Below are positions 15,397 through 55,981 of a DNA stretch of 64,000 nt, piece by piece. How positions within the stretch are numbered: the first letter of the stretch is position 1; each line of letters begins with the position of its first letter. The DNA is from Alphaproteobacteria bacterium (GTDB lineage: Bacteria > Pseudomonadota > Alphaproteobacteria > Micavibrionales > UBA2020). The DNA is taken from positions 1,097,043-1,161,042 of the forward strand of contig JAICWS010000002.1 of the NCBI GenBank assembly GCA_025934695.1, written 5' to 3'. The notes under the pieces are model-generated. The model ran no database searches. It was not told where the DNA came from and worked only from the letters and a program-made list of their open reading frames with translations. A program made the translations under genes and the position numbers.

Positions 15397-16767
15397 TTAA
15401 CGCGGCGCCGGGCCGCCTTGCTTGCGCTCCTGCTTCCGGCGGGCTTCTTCTTTTTCGATCAGGTCCAGCGCATAGTCGCATTTATGAACTTTCGCGATGT
15501 CCTTGGCGGTGAGGCCGAGGCGGTCGCGTATTGAAAGATCGGCCCCCGACCGCATCAGCCGTTCCAGGTAATTGCAGCCGTCCACCGTGACCATCAGCGG
15601 CGTGCGCCCCAGCATGTCCTGGGCGTCAAGGGTTTCCCGGCACAGGTGCATGTCGACCATCGGCTCGCAGCTGACATGCCGCACCGCGTAATGCAGGTGC
15701 GTGCGGCCAGCGTTGTCGCGGGCGCTTCGGTCGCTGCCCCAGTTGCAGCCGCGCGCGGCCCAGACGTCGGGCCAGTTGTCGAGCAGCGCCATCAGCACCG
15801 TCTGGCCGTCATGGTTGCGCTTGTTGAGAGCCTCGTGATTGCCGCCGAATTTTTCCATGCGGAAGGAGGAGCCGCCGCCCTTCGCGGTGTGGAACACTTC
15901 CTCGGTCAGCGCGTCGGGAACCGGCGGCATCCGGGGGCCGCTTTTCGGGAATGACGCGCGCAAGGCTTCGCTGTCGAGTTGGCCCACGCGTTCCAGCAGG
16001 TAATCGTAATCGAATTCCTTGCAGTACATCTGCTTCTGCGCGATGGCCTTTTGCAGCTCCGGCATATCCTGCTGGCGAAAGCCGCCCGCCATGCAGATGA
16101 CTTCGGCGGCGTCGCCGCGCTTGGAGAAAATCGCGTGGTACAGCGGCGTATGGCCTTCCGGGTCTTCCAGCGTTGGCGAGACACCGCGCTCTAGCAGCTT
16201 TTCGAGCAGGCGCGTCTTATTGTGGCCGCAGGCCGCGAAATGGATGGGGTGGACGCCCTCCATGACATGCGCCGACAGGTCGGGGTCAGCGTCTGCCAGC
16301 ATCACCGCGGCGGCGCAGGTGTCATAGCCGGCGGAAGCCACCATCAGGGGCGTGACGCCGTCCAGGTTTTTCATGTGCAGGTTCAGGCCATGGTCGATCA
16401 GCGCCGCCAAGGCATCAAGGTTATTGTACCGGACCGCCAGGTGCAGCAGTCCATTGCCCCCGTCGTCATAGGTGTAGAGGTCGATGTTCTCTTCTTTTAA
16501 AAGGCGCCTGACATCCGCGGGCGGCGCGCGGTTCGTGATGGCGGAGATCAGTTCTTTGGTGTTACGGTTGCGCTCTTCCTCGCGCCGGCGGCGCGCTTCG
16601 TCGTGCCGCCGCGCTTCCGCCAGCTTGCGCACGGTCTCGTCGATCTCGCTCGCGCTGACATCTTCCGCAGCCCGAATGGCGGATTTGTTGAAGGCGAGGG
16701 GACGCCGGACGGTGACGGATTTTTCCGTCACCGGGTCGTCGTTATTCTCGTTTACGGGTTTCGTCAT
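15397..16767 (-). CDS. Ankyrin-repeat protein
   Basis: A 456-residue protein without signal peptide or membrane helix. Residues about 40-70 are a charged helix rich in Arg and Glu (EARRHDEARRRREEERNR), probably a coiled coil. Ankyrin-like repeats follow from about 85: GNGLLHLAVRYNNLDALAAL, DGVTPLMVASAGYDTC, GVHPIHFAACGHNKTRLLEK, EGHTPLYHAIFSKRGD, and after a ~100-residue insert DGQTVLMALLDN, GRTHLHYAVRHV, GRTPLMVTVDGCNYLERLMR. It ends in a basic KEEARRKQERKQGG tail. Likely a protein-binding scaffold; its partner is unknown. It lacks the C-terminal domain shared by the two ankyrin proteins at 54-56 kb. Confidence 0.85.
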   Translation of the reverse strand: MTKPVNENNDDPVTEKSVTVRRPLAFNKSAIRAAEDVSASEIDETVRKLAEARRHDEARRRREEERNRNTKELISAITNRAPPADVRRLLKEENIDLYTYDDGGNGLLHLAVRYNNLDALAALIDHGLNLHMKNLDGVTPLMVASAGYDTCAAAVMLADADPDLSAHVMEGVHPIHFAACGHNKTRLLEKLLERGVSPTLEDPEGHTPLYHAIFSKRGDAAEVICMAGGFRQQDMPELQKAIAQKQMYCKEFDYDYLLERVGQLDSEALRASFPKSGPRMPPVPDALTEEVFHTAKGGGSSFRMEKFGGNHEALNKRNHDGQTVLMALLDNWPDVWAARGCNWGSDRSARDNAGRTHLHYAVRHVSCEPMVDMHLCRETLDAQDMLGRTPLMVTVDGCNYLERLMRSGADLSIRDRLGLTAKDIAKVHKCDYALDLIEKEEARRKQERKQGGPAPR

Positions 16768-48979: not shown

Positions 48980-49008
48980 TTGGCATAATATTCGAGAATC
49001 CCTTATAA
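48980..49008 (+). promoter_or_regulatory. Probable sigma-70 promoter for the LRR-like gene
   Basis: TTGGCA (48980-48985), a 17-base spacer and TTATAA (49003-49008) in an AT-rich 240-base intergenic space, 105 bases before the ATG at 49114. Confidence 0.45.
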
Positions 49009-49113
49009 AGTCAGTCAGGCTGCGCCACTACGGCATGACGGTTTAAATGTTTCCCGTTTACCGATTTCGCAAAGCTAAAACAATCTTTGTTTCCTTTGGA
49101 GGAGATTGTTCTC

Positions 49114-49674
49114 ATGTGGCCAAAAATTTTCAATCGACAATCCGCGCCAGTATCCGAAGCAGAAAAATTTCTGACCGAAAGACGCTATGGCTTCGAGAAG
49201 CAGCTGGACGGTTCGCTGTTGTTGGACTCGTGGGATTTCAGCTTGAGCGGGAAGGGGCTCACGAAGCTCCCTAATCTGACCAATGTCGTGGTGAGAAATC
49301 ATTTCAACTGCGGCGACAATGAACTCACATCGCTGGAAGGCGCGCCCACGGTCGGCGGTATGTTCTTGTGCCACAATAACAAGCTCACCACGCTGAAAGG
49401 CGCGCCGCCTTCGGTCGGGGGCGAGTTCTATTGTTACAAAAATCCGCTGCTGAAAAGCCTCGAAGGAACTCCGATGCAGTTCCTCGAGCTGGTCAGCGAC
49501 CTCGGCACCTTTTCATCCTGGGACCAGGTGCCGGAGAAGCTGCGCCTCTCGCCGGAAACGCGGGAGCGGATGGCGCGCGAAAAAATCGAGGCCGAACGGC
49601 AGGCAATCGCGCAGCATGTCGTGTTGCAGAAAAAGCTACTCATTCGCCGGCCACTGAAACTCCACAGGCAGTAA
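49114..49674 (+). CDS. Leucine-rich-repeat-like protein
   Basis: A 186-residue soluble protein. Three short repeats are visible: NELTSLEGAPTVGGMFLCHN, NKLTTLKGAPPSVGGEFYCY and the start of a third, NPLLKSLEGTP. This L-x-x-L-x-G-A-P-x-x-V-G-G pattern is the leucine-rich-like repeat found mainly in phage and bacterial orphan proteins. After the repeats is a helical, Glu/Gln/Arg-rich C-terminal part. The start at 49114 is set by GGAGGAG about 10 bases upstream. It may be a short, recently decayed member of a longer repeat family. Confidence 0.75.
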   Translation: MWPKIFNRQSAPVSEAEKFLTERRYGFEKQLDGSLLLDSWDFSLSGKGLTKLPNLTNVVVRNHFNCGDNELTSLEGAPTVGGMFLCHNNKLTTLKGAPPSVGGEFYCYKNPLLKSLEGTPMQFLELVSDLGTFSSWDQVPEKLRLSPETRERMAREKIEAERQAIAQHVVLQKKLLIRRPLKLHRQ

Positions 49675-49735
49675 AATCAAAGGGTTGGATATCTCGTTGA
49701 ATTTTTATGGGATATATAGTATCAAGTCCTTCACC

Positions 49736-50344
49736 ATGAAAGAAACGCCGCTCAACAAAGCCTTTGAAGACGCCCTGCGCACATTCGCGCAGGATCCCGC
49801 GCAGCAGTTCGCGGCGAAGCAGCTCGAGGTTTTTCAGCAGACGGCCGTCGATTTCCAGGATGCGGGCATCGTCGTGACGCTCGCCGTGCGTCCGGGCGGG
49901 GAAGGAACCCAGCTTGGTGAAAAGAGGGACGTCGACGGCGAAATCGTCGCGAACGGCGAAATGGAAATGGGCAAGGTGAAGCTCGACTTCGTCATCCACA
50001 AGGAACGCTATTACGACGACCGCATGTCCGTGCGCGTCTACCGGGACGAGGACGAGGTTTTCGCGCGCACTTCCGCCTACGACGAAGACAGTAAAATCTG
50101 GACCGAAGAAGAAACCGGCGACGACGATGACGGGTACGACGATGAAGACGATGAAAGCGCCAAAAAGGAAAAGCTGCCGCAGGATATGAAGTCGGTGATC
50201 AGCCGCTATCTCATCGACGTACGTACGCGCGAAGAATTCGTCGCGCGCTATAATGTCGGTCCCAACGGTGTTCCCGGCAACGCCGTCGAAAAGCCGTTTC
50301 CCGTCGCGGCGCCGCTCAAGCTCAAGAAACCGGGCGCACCATGA
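49736..50344 (+). CDS. Acidic protein of unknown function, first of two tandem paralogues
   Basis: A 202-residue protein starting MKETPLNKAFEDALRTFAQD. It has no signal peptide or membrane segment; residues ~125-145 are a highly acidic run (ETGDDDDGYDDEDDES). It resembles the next gene in its N-terminus, in the VTLAVRPG/LTLEVRPG strand and in a shared C-terminal tail: EKPFPVAAPLKLKKPGAP here, GKSFSVSPPLKLKGAPKP there. The two overlap by ATGA. No ribosome-binding site is obvious, so the true start could be slightly different. The family is not recognised. Confidence 0.68.
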   Translation: MKETPLNKAFEDALRTFAQDPAQQFAAKQLEVFQQTAVDFQDAGIVVTLAVRPGGEGTQLGEKRDVDGEIVANGEMEMGKVKLDFVIHKERYYDDRMSVRVYRDEDEVFARTSAYDEDSKIWTEEETGDDDDGYDDEDDESAKKEKLPQDMKSVISRYLIDVRTREEFVARYNVGPNGVPGNAVEKPFPVAAPLKLKKPGAP

Positions 50345-50859
50345 AGGAGCCGCAGCTGACCGGAAAATTCGAGCAGGCCGTCGCCGACATGCGCGACAAT
50401 GCGGACATGAAGGCGCTCCTCCACCATCTGGGCCAGATCCGCGAAGCGGTGACGGAGCTTCAAGCGGACGGGCTGCCGTTGACGCTGGAGGTGCGTCCCG
50501 GCGCGTATAAATGCGCGATCGATTACGATAACAGGGCGAAGGTCATGGCCAACGGCGCGATCCTGATCGGCGGCACCGCGCTCGGTTTTGGTTTCACCCG
50601 CAACGGCGGGTCGATGAGTTTCACGATCAATCTTGGCTCATGCGAGATCGACTCCGCCTATCTCTCCGGCGAAGGCTTTCCCGAGCGGGAGAACGGCCGC
50701 CTGAAGAGGGTGGTCACCGACGCCGTGCTGAAGGTCGGCGCGCAGCTCCATCTGCTCGATGAATTCAATATCGACGAGGCCGGGCGGCACGGCATTTCGA
50801 CAGGCAAAAGTTTTTCGGTTTCGCCGCCATTGAAGCTCAAGGGCGCTCCGAAGCCTTAG
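50341..50859 (+). CDS. Protein of unknown function, second of two tandem paralogues
   Basis: A 172-residue protein starting MKEPQLTGKFEQAVADMRDN. It overlaps its paralogue by ATGA, so the pair is translated in step and probably forms a complex or acts on the same partner. Compared with the first copy it lacks the acidic insert and is rich in glycine in the middle (GGTALGFGFTRNGGSMSFTI). The shared KxFxVxxPLKLK tail is positively charged and may be a binding or export determinant. No known domain is seen. Confidence 0.68.
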   Translation: MKEPQLTGKFEQAVADMRDNADMKALLHHLGQIREAVTELQADGLPLTLEVRPGAYKCAIDYDNRAKVMANGAILIGGTALGFGFTRNGGSMSFTINLGSCEIDSAYLSGEGFPERENGRLKRVVTDAVLKVGAQLHLLDEFNIDEAGRHGISTGKSFSVSPPLKLKGAPKP

Positions 50860-50918: not shown

Positions 50919-50949
50919 TTTGACATAATAAATGTCAAAAAGCTATAGT
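50919..50949 (+). promoter_or_regulatory. Strong promoter with palindromic operator before the 51010 gene
   Basis: TTGACA (50920-50925), an 18-base spacer, and TATAGT (50944-50949). A perfect inverted repeat TTTGACAT-AATAA-ATGTCAAA (50919-50939) overlaps the -35 box and would let a dimeric repressor block it. The promoter decides the gene start: an upstream ATG at 50932 would lie ahead of the transcription start, so translation must begin at the GTG (51010). Confidence 0.65.
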
Positions 50950-51009
50950 GCTTCCCATTGGCAGGAACAAAAATTTTGTCGCGCTCAAGGCGGCAGGGGA
51001 CTTTCAAAC

Positions 51010-52365
51010 GTGCAGCACGATCCGGCGGTATTGCAGGAAATCCAGGAGGAGCTTGAGCGCGACAAGCGGGCTTATGAAGCCCTGCCGCCGCGCCAGCAGC
51101 GCCTCGTGCAGCGCATCGCAAAATATGAATCCGGCATGCGCGACATCCTGGTCGAAGGGGGCAAGGCCGTTATCGGCGTGCTCGAACTCGCGGCTAATGT
51201 AATCCTGCGTCTTCCCTATGTGCTGGCCGGACGGCTGATCGCGGGCATCGCGAACCGCGCCGTCGACGTGGTGAAGCTGGGCGTTGGCATCGTCTCCGGC
51301 GCGGGCCGGGTGCTGCTGGCAACGGGACGCGGCGGCCTCGCGCTCGCGTCGCGCGGCATCGACCTGCTCCAGAAAAAAGGCTGGCTGTCGCAAAGCGGCG
51401 GCGCGAAAGGCGAGGAGCGCCTGAAAGCCTGGGGCGAAAAGCTCAACGACTGGCGCGACAACGTCATCGCCTGGCGCAAGAATGTCAGCGAGAGCATCGA
51501 CAAGGGCTGGGCCTGGGCGAAGGCCGGGATGACGAAAGGCGTCGTCGTTGCCGCCGAAGCGCTCGAATATTACGGCGCCATCGGCCTGTATCGCGGCACG
51601 AAATGGGTGCTCAACCCGCGCCGCCCGTCGGGAAAGCCGCTGTTCGGGTCGGAAATGGCGAACCGCGTCGTCGGTCTCGGGATGGCGGCCGTACTTTTCA
51701 CCGGACTGTCGTTCGAGCTCTCGAAGCTTTTTATCCTGGGGAAGATCTGGCACATCAAGCTCGCCCATTCCTTCGTCCATGACGTCGGCATCCCTATGTC
51801 GCGCCGCGTGGCCAAGCAGGTGGCGCTGCAGCCGCTTCTCGCGCTGGGCCTCGCCTCCGCGAAATTCGTGAGCCTGCCGATCATCGCGGCCGCGCGCGGC
51901 GCGCTGAAATCGACGCCATTCACACAAGGGCTTGCTTATCAATATAACGTCCAGCTGGGCGAACGCCTCGCACGCCGCGCCGCCCGGAAAGCGGAACGCG
52001 ACGCCAAGCCGCAGACGGGGATGAAGGGTCTGGCGCGCAAGGCGGGGCACGGAACCCTGGTCGTCTCGCGCTATCTGCACAAGAAGACGCTGAATTTCGT
52101 CAGCCTCTTCGTTGAACATATCGTCGAAAAGGCTTCGCCGGAGTTTTATGAAGGCCGCTTGAAACACTACCAGTCGCGCGCCGCGGCAAAATCCGTCGAA
52201 GCGCCGGTGCCTGCCGCAGTTCACGCCGCGCCGGAAGCATCGGCTGCGGTTACGAAGCTGCCCGGCCTTACGCCTTCCTTCGAAAATGCGGTCAACGACA
52301 ATCCCAAACCCGACGCCGCCGCGCCGCAGCCCGCCAAAAAGCCCGACCAGAATTTCGGAATGTAA
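51010..52365 (+). CDS. Large helical protein of unknown function
   Basis: A 451-residue basic protein starting at GTG with AGGGGA 9 bases upstream. Residues about 60-125 carry long amphipathic helices (VLELAANVILRLPYVLAGRL, AVDVVKLGVGIVSGAGRVLL), and residues about 205-235 a hydrophobic helix (VVGLGMAAVLFTGLSFELSK), so it is probably membrane-associated. The C-terminus is an Ala/Pro-rich flexible tail (VNDNPKPDAAAPQPAKKPDQ). No family is recognised. Strong promoter with an operator implies regulated, high-level expression. It ends 3 bases from the convergent glutaryl-CoA dehydrogenase gene. Confidence 0.7.
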   Translation: MQHDPAVLQEIQEELERDKRAYEALPPRQQRLVQRIAKYESGMRDILVEGGKAVIGVLELAANVILRLPYVLAGRLIAGIANRAVDVVKLGVGIVSGAGRVLLATGRGGLALASRGIDLLQKKGWLSQSGGAKGEERLKAWGEKLNDWRDNVIAWRKNVSESIDKGWAWAKAGMTKGVVVAAEALEYYGAIGLYRGTKWVLNPRRPSGKPLFGSEMANRVVGLGMAAVLFTGLSFELSKLFILGKIWHIKLAHSFVHDVGIPMSRRVAKQVALQPLLALGLASAKFVSLPIIAAARGALKSTPFTQGLAYQYNVQLGERLARRAARKAERDAKPQTGMKGLARKAGHGTLVVSRYLHKKTLNFVSLFVEHIVEKASPEFYEGRLKHYQSRAAAKSVEAPVPAAVHAAPEASAAVTKLPGLTPSFENAVNDNPKPDAAAPQPAKKPDQNFGM

Positions 52366-53914: not shown

Positions 53915-54015
53915 AGTGCTTCTTTATGTCAATGAATGTGTGCCGGATTGACCGCACCGCGCGGTTGTCGTAAAACTCCACTTTCTGACAAAATCTATTA
54001 TAGGGGCGCAATACC

Positions 54016-54984
54016 ATGGACCGCCAGAAGAAGCTCGACGATAAATTGTTGCGCAGTGTCTACAGCAGTTACACGACCCTCCACGACGTCATCAAACTGA
54101 TCGATAGCGGAGCGGATCCGCTGGCCCGCGATTCAGAAGGCCTCACGCTCCTGCATCATCTGTTCATCACCCGCAGCGGCATGGATTCCCTCGCGAACGA
54201 AGTCCTGCCGCTGTGCATTGAGCGCGGCCTCGACATCAATGCGCGCGACAATGACGGATTGACGCCATTGCATTATGCGGCAAAACATTTTCACGCCAGG
54301 AACGGTCAAGGCCTGCGCCTGCTGGTGGAGCTCTATGGAGCCGACAGCAACGCGCGCTCCAACAACGGCACGACGCCGCTGCACAGCGCTGCCGGCGGAT
54401 ATGGCGCGGTGAAGGAACTGCTGCAGCTGGGCGCCGACCCGATGGCGCTGGACGGCAAGGGCGGCATGACGCCGCTGCACTATGCGGCCCTCCGCGGACT
54501 ATCCGACGCGGCGGATGAGCTTCTGACCAAAGGCGCGGACCCCGCGGCCCGTAGCGCCAGCGGACAGACGCCCGCGGATTTCGCGGCGAAGAACCATTAT
54601 TTTTCGCTGGCGGCATCACTGCGCAAGAAGGCGCAGGATGCGGAAGATACACGATGGAAGCCGCAGCGACCGGAAGGACCGCAGGATCCCTGGAAGCTGA
54701 TCGACAAAACTTCCATCTCCCGCATGCATGATTGTTCGCCGGCGGGCTACCGCGTCACGGAAATCTTCAATTTCTCCTCGCGGCTTTACACGCACATCGC
54801 CACGAACCTTGAGACGAAGGCCGAGGCGCTGACCGTGAGGACCTTCGATGAATTCGCGGACAAGCGCCCGCTGAAGGAGGCGCTCGCCCAAATCGATCGC
54901 CTGCACGGCGAGGCCGATCCTGAAGCCATTTATCCGCCGCGCATGGACAAGCAGCCGCGGCTGCAGCCCCGGCCACAGGAGTAG
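54016..54984 (+). CDS. Ankyrin-repeat protein with a conserved C-terminal domain, tandem copy 1
   Basis: A 322-residue soluble protein. Ankyrin repeats occupy about 18-200: DSEGLTLLHHLF, DNDGLTPLHYAAKHF, NNGTTPLHSAAGGYGAVKEL, GGMTPLHYAALRGLSDAADE and ASGQTPADFAAKN. Residues about 223-299 are a separate domain: QDPWKLIDKTSIS, GYRVTEIFNFSSRLYTHIAT, TKAEALTVRTFDEFADKRPL. The next gene has the same domain. I know no name for it. The pair is 4 bases apart and the second has its own AGGAG, so they form an operon. Function by inference: the ankyrin part binds a partner and the C-terminal domain acts on it or on the envelope. Confidence 0.85.
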   Translation: MDRQKKLDDKLLRSVYSSYTTLHDVIKLIDSGADPLARDSEGLTLLHHLFITRSGMDSLANEVLPLCIERGLDINARDNDGLTPLHYAAKHFHARNGQGLRLLVELYGADSNARSNNGTTPLHSAAGGYGAVKELLQLGADPMALDGKGGMTPLHYAALRGLSDAADELLTKGADPAARSASGQTPADFAAKNHYFSLAASLRKKAQDAEDTRWKPQRPEGPQDPWKLIDKTSISRMHDCSPAGYRVTEIFNFSSRLYTHIATNLETKAEALTVRTFDEFADKRPLKEALAQIDRLHGEADPEAIYPPRMDKQPRLQPRPQE

Positions 54985-54988
54985 GCAT

Positions 54989-55981
54989 ATGGGACAGAAC
55001 AAGGATCTCGATAACCGGCTGATCCAACTCGCAGCCAACGGCAGCGTGGATACCGCGCGCCAGATCATCCGCGAAGGCGCCGATCCGCAGGCGCGCGACG
55101 CCACATCGGGTAAGACCGGTCTTCATTACGCCATCAACTATTCCGAATATAATTACACCGGCAAGGGCCGCGAGATGCTGTCGATCTTCCTCAACCGCGG
55201 GGTTGATATCAACGCGGGCGATGCCGCGGGCGCGACGGCGCTGCATTACGCGGCGCTGGACGAAGGCTATATCTGCCGCGCCAAGATCAACGACCTGCTC
55301 AATTTCGGCGCGAACATCGAGGCGCGCGACCGGGAAGGCCAGACGCCGCTGCATCACGCCGCGCGGATGGGCAAGAAGGCGGACGCCGTCAAGCTGCTGC
55401 TGGAGGCGGGCGCCGATGTCAACGCCCGCGATGAATCGGGCGCCACGCCCCTGCATATGGCGGCGGCCCGCGGCGAGGAAGAAGTCATCAAGATTTTGCT
55501 GAATGCGGGCGCTGACGTGAACGCGGAGACCCGCACCGGGCTGCACGTCTGGGATTTCGGCGTCGAGAACGGGCGCGATTACCAGGCCCAGTGCCTGAAG
55601 GCCGAAGCGGCCAAGCAGCTGCGTGCCGCGCGCAAGCAGCAGGAAGAAACCCGCCGCCGCCTGGAAGCCGAGAGGCCGCGCGATCCCTGGAAGCTGCTCG
55701 CGCCGGACAAGGTCGCTATTTCAACTGTCGAAAAGCAGATCGGCTACCAGGTCACGGAGGTTTTCAATTTCGCCGCGCGCACCTATACGCAGATCTCGCA
55801 GAACCTGTCCACCAAGTCAGAAGCCGTCGCAGTCAAAACCTTCGACGAGTTCGACGACAAGACTTCCCTTGAAAGGGCTTTCGGCGAACTGCAGCGCCTC
55901 GGCGGCCAGGCCGAGCGCGATTCCATCAAAGGCCCCGTCGTCGAAAAGCCGCGCAAGCAGCTCAACCTGCCAAAGGCCTAG
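54989..55981 (+). CDS. Ankyrin-repeat protein with a conserved C-terminal domain, tandem copy 2
   Basis: A 330-residue soluble protein. Repeats run from about 12 to 190: KTGLHYAINYSEYNYTGKGR, GATALHYAALDEGYICRAKI, EGQTPLHHAARMGKKADAVK, SGATPLHMAAARGEEEVIKI and a final RTGLHVWDFG. A charged helix (KQLRAARKQQEETRRRLEAE) leads into the same C-terminal domain as its neighbour, residues about 231-307: RDPWKLLAPDKVAIS, YQVTEVFNFAARTYTQI, TKSEAVAVKTFDEFDDKTSL. The matching residues are about half identical between the copies, indicating old duplication. A strong AGGAG precedes the ATG. Confidence 0.85.
   Translation: MGQNKDLDNRLIQLAANGSVDTARQIIREGADPQARDATSGKTGLHYAINYSEYNYTGKGREMLSIFLNRGVDINAGDAAGATALHYAALDEGYICRAKINDLLNFGANIEARDREGQTPLHHAARMGKKADAVKLLLEAGADVNARDESGATPLHMAAARGEEEVIKILLNAGADVNAETRTGLHVWDFGVENGRDYQAQCLKAEAAKQLRAARKQQEETRRRLEAERPRDPWKLLAPDKVAISTVEKQIGYQVTEVFNFAARTYTQISQNLSTKSEAVAVKTFDEFDDKTSLERAFGELQRLGGQAERDSIKGPVVEKPRKQLNLPKA

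Follow-up and report, generated by a model that had tools for sequence, protein, structure and literature searches.

Why should two neighbouring proteins end in the same basic tail? The proteins, P1 and P2, are encoded by an overlapping gene pair in a 64,000-nucleotide stretch of DNA, here called the window, from an Alphaproteobacteria bacterium (Micavibrionales, UBA2020; assembly GCA_025934695.1, contig JAICWS010000002.1, positions 1,097,043 to 1,161,042), and their tails read KPFPVAAPLKLKKPGAP and KSFSVSPPLKLKGAPKP, respectively. An earlier note had remarked on the pair's ATGA overlap, its paralogy, a shared strand ending VRPG, an acidic insert in P1 and the common tail, and all of these are borne out by coordinates, BLASTP and structural models. 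The tail is no peculiarity of P1 and P2: the observation is confirmed, and it is both correct and larger than first described. Judged from sequence, the tail is a tag carried by dozens of unrelated proteins, at a terminal position and with a common promoter-like element ahead of their genes. We consider it moderately probable that the tag is portable and serves in sorting: a receptor would read it, and an effector-like repertoire would in this way be exported.

To ask how widespread the tail is, we fixed a PLKLK codon pattern from P1 and P2 alone and searched the window's own genome (G000, 4.13 Mb) with it. There were 21 exact matches (8 forward, 13 reverse); the pattern read backwards gave 16, whose positions were not looked at. 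Fifteen of these, counting P1 and P2, stand 3-11 codons ahead of the stop in open reading frames (ORFs) of at least 107 codons, so that the genome search proposed in the earlier note yields 13 C-terminal carriers beyond the pair. The remaining matches fall in ORFs of fewer than 50 codons (5/21) or 352 codons before a stop (1/21). A profile built from 17 tails found 24 matches in the same genome at E <= 10, and the 8 new ones comprised 7 C-terminal tails and 1 N-terminal. When a profile of 24 tails was run over 55 genomes, G000 had 46 matches, a genome of the same genus (G001) had 42 and one of the same family (G008) had 7, against 0-2 for any of the 52 remaining genomes. From these 95 matches we retained 89, each no more than 25 residues from the stop of an ORF of at least 70 aa (42 in G000, 40 in G001 and 7 in G008); the six excluded were four in G000 (1 N-terminal, 3 in short or absent ORFs) and two in G001 (short ORFs).

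The consensus of the tag is [TL]-x-x-[DP]-[IV]-x-V-x-[KR]-P-L-[KQR]-L-K, about 14 residues, followed by 0-24 residues to the C-terminus. Counting from the proline as position 0, the 89 tails have P in 85, L at +1 in 86, L at +3 in 83 and K/R at +4 in 81, with V/I at -3 in 83, I/V at -5 in 67, T/L at -9 in 65 and K/R at -1 in 63. When a position matrix was run over 655 genes, 93 of the 96 windows scoring at least 14 bits fell within 25 residues of the C-terminus, the matrix having been trained on the 89 tails, though not on their position. The same matrix gave the following counts of C-terminal tags in the fetched DNA: G000, 62 (364 kb); G001, 59 (254 kb); G008, 16 (65 kb); G006, 2 (35 kb); G003 and G002 together, 0 (147 kb). 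These densities are not comparable, since the stretches of G000, G001 and G008 were picked around matches and those of G002, G003 and G006 around ankyrin genes. In several proteins (loci L254, L122 and L124 of G008, L128 of G001 and L115 of G000) the chain ends in GFKL, GFSL, GFEL or KSFSI, 4-20 residues past the tag, with the look of a second motif.

The composition of the core also raises the question of whether the tag sets protein stability. A leucine core with flanking lysines would resemble the peptides bound by DnaK, and this counts in favour of a quality-control or degradation signal, in which a chaperone (DnaK, for instance) or an adaptor of Clp or Lon would hold the basic-hydrophobic peptide. 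Unlike degrons read from the end, the tag lies at a distance from the C-terminus that varies over 0-24 residues, and a general chaperone would not need conservation as specific as that of the proline, the valine and position -9. We regard this explanation as improbable.

Among 12 best-reciprocal pairs between G000 and G001 (32-72% identical, drawn from the 42 and 40 tagged proteins only), the proline and both leucines are kept in 12/12 and the last lysine in 11/12; the core is retained and the residues beyond it have diverged. At the DNA level, the core information in the 42 G000 genes resides in codon positions 1 and 2: third-position identity is 0.50 versus 0.43 expected from codon usage, and the sequence after the stop carries 0.055 bit per base, i.e. 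none. By these comparisons the tag is conserved as protein, not DNA. The figures also bear on the idea that the tail was left over from a common ancestor, or that it is a mobile DNA repeat translated along with the gene. P1 and P2 are paralogous, and 36 of the 89 tagged proteins belong to one ankyrin cluster, as that idea would have it. The third-position and post-stop figures rule out a DNA repeat as the source, and paralogy alone is ruled out by the 38 clusters that bear the tag. This explanation, already largely refuted, is scarcely credible.

The 38 clusters result from comparing the 89 tagged proteins with their tails stripped (BLASTP, E < 1e-3), and the largest holds the 36 ankyrin proteins. 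In the Pfam set of 87 (two proteins of fewer than 90 aa were omitted), Ank_2 is found in 35, and single matches are AAA_2, Band_7, Macro, DUF6745, I78 inhibitor and MORN_2, plus a few weak ones; most non-ankyrin passengers have no above-cut-off family in Pfam, NCBIfam or PHROGs. NCBIfam attaches Dot/Icm ankyrin-effector labels to at most 33 members, but these labels reflect the ankyrin repeats and we did not use them as evidence for Dot/Icm. By a crude Kyte-Doolittle criterion, 14/89 have a membrane-like hydrophobic segment, mostly a hairpin in mid-protein, and in 1/89 the segment starts within the first 30 residues. The tagged genes stand as singletons or short tandem runs amid housekeeping genes. 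Some tagged proteins look like housekeeping fragments (L111:3400-4011, L088:3306-4022, L151:966-1565), one type being a ClpB-like AAA piece, another a P-loop-like domain whose Walker A does not look intact by eye, and a third the first part of a Band_7 protein.

The tagged genes also tend to share an upstream element, TTGACATAAT. We counted it before genes preceded by a gap of 40 bases or more (from our own greedy ORF calls, not annotation), and within one mismatch it stood ahead of 17/27 tagged versus 14/176 untagged genes in G000 (p = 4e-10) and 15/28 versus 11/107 in G001 (p = 3e-6). The reversed element, as a control, was found ahead of 0/27 tagged and 1/176 untagged genes in G000, and of 0/28 and 0/107 in G001. 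At 30 sites ahead of tagged genes, a -10-like hexamer follows, with a commonest spacing of 17 bases from TTGACA. Conversely, untagged genes that bear the element showed no excess of tag-like tails in G000 (1/23 versus 13/282) and an excess in G001 (6/17 versus 10/176). The element is absent from the fetched stretches of G003, G006 and G008. It has the look of a strong promoter of the housekeeping type that carries an additional TAAT, and it may mark a regulon or just a promoter style.

We then considered how far the tag extends. A class-wide search with a profile of 70 of the 89 tails found 1-2 matches at E <= 0.1 in 24 of 288 other alphaproteobacterial genomes, about the number expected by chance. 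Within the family, G008 gave 16 matches, 15 of them C-terminal and 1 not. Another genus of the family, g2, carries variant tags such as TTLQKDISIAKPVTVRRR, DTLQSDTAVLRPLQVRRR and GTREDVTVGKPMTVRKRR; 7 of its 10 matches are C-terminal, one lies in a 24-codon ORF and two were not resolved. A further 17 matches in other family members were mixed and weak (E 0.5 or worse), with a few near ORF ends, and were left uncounted. No comparable tagged set was found in G002-G005, which belong to the window's own genus and each have at least 144 Ank_2 matches. G006, G009 and G011 rank with G000, G001 and G008 among the genomes in which the tag is present; for genus g3, as for G002-G005, it is absent or was not seen. 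By these alignments, the tag differs by genus, as if in dialects. Ank_2 matches per genome number at least 128-182 in G000-G006 and G008, and 29 and 38 in G007 and G012 of the same family, the counts in eight of these ten genomes being lower bounds, among the best 150 candidates.

The dialects, together with the passengers, bear on whether the tag could act inside a host cell, for example on a host protein or membrane to which it would bind once another signal had brought the passenger in. Its basic character and the eukaryotic-type repeats in many passengers would suit such a role. A shared route accounts better than a shared host target for one tag on so many different proteins, the dialects of the genera would require changes of host, and no host is known; we think this highly improbable.

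How, then, might a sorting tag work? The tag would be appended via a disordered end to folded proteins, usually at the C-terminus and rarely at the N-terminus. A cytoplasmic receptor would bind it and pass the proteins on to an export or injection apparatus, and the tagged set, with its ankyrin-repeat, MORN-like and membrane-hairpin proteins without signal peptides, would be an effector-like repertoire in which P1 and P2 are two passengers, possibly acting jointly. The earlier note had already suggested that the tail may be a targeting signal. This gains from the dozens of unrelated C-terminal carriers, the common upstream element and the retention of the tag in orthologues; that the tag actually targets proteins is what we infer.

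The passengers resemble an effector repertoire, and export is therefore our first choice and docking our second. A docking tag would hold proteins at some site within the bacterium, be it a scaffold, a pole or a compartment, with no export. Such a role accommodates tags near the N-terminus, of which there are few, two cases in all: the G001 ankyrin protein L134:109-1059, which has the exact upstream element and ALQRDIRVLKPLTLTFG near its N-terminus (full match, 23.2 bits), and, probably, the window gene 15397-16767, with EKSVTVRRPLAFN at about residue 12. Encapsulin targeting peptides, as described in excerpts of PMC8346489, are likewise mostly C-terminal and sometimes N-terminal. Two-helix membrane proteins among the tag carriers would also fit docking. 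On the other side, a classical encapsulin shell (PF04454, Linocin_M18) was found in 0/15 family genomes, G000 included, in a search with positive controls that did not cover encapsulin families 2-4; the passengers are not a metabolic set; and just 12 reciprocal pairs exist among the 42 and 40 tagged proteins of G000 and G001. Such turnover is more usual for effectors. We consider docking unlikely, though it deserves to be kept in mind.

Several results also weigh against export by a sorting tag, the missing shell being one of them. VirB4 (PF03135) has no match in G000, G001 and 21 others, a model that may miss a divergent DotO and the only one used here that bears on Dot/Icm; matches occurred in 2/25 genomes only, G008 (partial) and G013. 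The type VI secretion sheath TssC/VipB (PF05943) was found in 0/15 family genomes. No gene family that might encode the receptor recurs beside the tagged genes, whose neighbours are mostly housekeeping. Many tagged genes lack the upstream element, and some housekeeping-like genes have it. Finally, many ankyrin proteins of G000 are untagged, as are those of the ankyrin-rich relatives G002-G005, and thus the tag is not needed for the role of ankyrin proteins there. Taken further, the sorting reading may imply a family-specific, undescribed delivery route that is neither VirB-type, type VI nor encapsulin, with a tag at either end, genus dialects and, in G000, a regulon that comprises 60 passengers or more; we put this forward as a possibility that we ourselves rather doubt.

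We now return to the pair. P1 and P2 are 23% identical over their full length (BLASTP, E = 6e-10), and without their tails they still form one cluster, together with a G001 homologue. AlphaFold predicts for both a helix, a helix, about five antiparallel strands and a helix, at modest confidence (mean pLDDT 69.6 for P1 and 70.3 for P2), with the VRPG segment as a strand in each. In P1 the two N-terminal helices and the beta meander are followed by the acidic insert, which P2 lacks and whose pLDDT is below 50 at residues 129-137 and 140-147, then by the C-terminal helix and a disordered tail. In the models, order is poor over the final 22 residues of P1 and over most of the tail of P2. Neither protein had anything above cut-off in Pfam, NCBIfam or PHROGs; against the PDB, there were only weak PhoQ-type matches by sequence (E 0.034), and the best fold matches by Foldseek had E 0.05 for P2 and 0.098 for P1. 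Fold comparison with VIA-align placed P2 near the Fbxo7 FP domain (Z 8.7, rmsd 3.7, 113 aligned) and CapZ (Z <= 7.3), and P1 near Mediator Med17 (Z 8.3), frataxin (8.2) and CapZ (6.5), all near the tool's stated background. CapZ and the Fbxo7/PI31 FP domain are dimerisation domains of the alpha-beta(5)-alpha type. The CapZ and FP-domain rows are suggestive of a dimerisation domain, but they lie too near background for use, and frataxin and Mediator score as high for P1.

Homologues among the 55 relatives searched are confined to the window's genus, P2 in 5 genomes and P1 in 4, the window's own counted. Three loci are informative, all from metagenome-assembled genomes named 'Alphaproteobacteria bacterium': L176 (FW300_bin.31), L177 (SJ545) and L178 (C_No_T20_C_bin.40). 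The ATGA-overlapping pair recurs in L177 (1166-1693 and 1690-2172) and L178 (7405-7935 and 7932-8414), and the recurring overlap favours a coupling of P1 and P2. In L176, from the tagged relative G001, P1 is present and P2 was not found in a search of G001, so that P2 is not obligatory. A putative P1-P2 heteromer, as the earlier note proposed, is plausible. The homologues in L177 and L178 are without the tag and end in LEKFPSPKLPKP or LDKKPLAAPKLGGTQP; because homologues in untagged species end differently, the pair's tail is not simple shared inheritance.

Coordinates of the pair and of related features in the window
Feature	Position	Strand	Remarks
Promoter-like element TTGGCATAAT	48980..49009	+	1 mismatch vs TTGACATAAT; 18-base spacer, TATAAA; ahead of three tagged genes
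Gene upstream of P1	49114..49674	+	186 aa, tagged, ends IRRPLKLHRQ; repeats leucine-rich-looking by eye, no Pfam match
Tag of upstream gene HVVLQKKLLIRRPLKLH	49615..49665	+	profile, alignment
P1	49736..50344	+	202 aa, tagged; alternative in-frame TTG start possible at 49685
P1 tag GNAVEKPFPVAAPLKLK	50276..50326	+	profile, alignment
P2	50341..50859	+	172 aa, tagged; P1 paralogue, start codon overlapping P1 stop (ATGA, 50341-50344)
P2 tag GISTGKSFSVSPPLKLK	50791..50841	+	profile, alignment
Exact element TTGACATAAT	50920..50949	+	18-base spacer, TATAGT; ahead of next gene
Untagged gene behind exact element	50932..52365	+	451-477 aa; start perhaps GTG at 51010
Ankyrin-repeat protein	15397..16767	-	456 aa; tag-like motif EKSVTVRRPLAFN near N-terminus (16696-16731); gene coordinates derived by hand

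The gene directly upstream of P1 also bears the tail, which the earlier note had missed. Downstream of P2, the exact element lies within a perfect dyad, TTTGACAT-AATAA-ATGTCAAA (50919-50939), which might be an operator. Further along, two untagged tandem ankyrin proteins (54016-54984 and 54989-55981, both +) share a C-terminal stretch, VTEIFNF ... TFDEF ... LGG, which can be made out by eye in tagged proteins of G000 (L096, L108) as well as in ankyrin proteins from G002 and G003. Near 53932 (-), a CCCCGCGAAAGCGGG palindrome has the look of a dispersed repeat.

With a tag recognisable by sequence, genes that were anonymous become a definite list of passengers on a single pathway, and this in a lineage that only metagenomes have revealed. 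The tag offers a handle on how ankyrin-rich environmental bacteria deliver or place effector-like proteins, and on its own receptor. The genus dialects and the untagged species of the same genus provide a presence/absence comparison for finding the receptor gene. If the tag is sufficient, it would be a ready-made label to move proteins.

Short tags on otherwise unrelated proteins have precedents, and a comparison with these places the present tag. The targeting peptides of family 1 encapsulins, as described in excerpts of PMC7925596 and PMC8346489, are short, lie at flexible ends, mostly C-terminal and sometimes N-terminal, and are common to unrelated cargo; like the present tag, they combine hydrophobic residues with terminal lysines or arginines. 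Their consensus SDGSLGIGSLKRS, as given in the excerpted PMC8346489, is without the KPLKLK core, whereas the 89 tails here follow [IV]xVx[KR]PLxLK. Encapsulin cargo consists of a few enzymes, and here there are dozens of passengers, some with membrane segments. Type IV effector signals (VirB/D4, the Dot/Icm E-block) are similar in being C-terminal, partly basic and attached to chromosome-scattered ankyrin-repeat and membrane effectors. Those signals are loosely conserved; in the present tag, four residues are nearly fixed. LPXTG, PEP-CTERM and related sortase or exosortase tags are likewise short C-terminal tags on many unrelated proteins of one genome. They require a signal peptide and a C-terminal membrane segment, which the tagged class here does not have (14/89 with any segment, 1 near the N-terminus). 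The ankyrin effectors of Ehrlichia and Rickettsia, also Alphaproteobacteria, are secreted by type I systems through uncleaved C-terminal signals, a likeness to the present tag, and we know of no comparable motif for them. In open-licence PMC text we found no description of the tag, and string matches for PLKLK, PLQLK and TTGACATAAT were, among the matches listed, mostly to a synthetic bone-homing peptide. The present tag matches none of the systems tested. Short tags on unrelated proteins are nevertheless a known kind, and what we find in this genome, the same short end sequence on many unrelated proteins, is of that kind.
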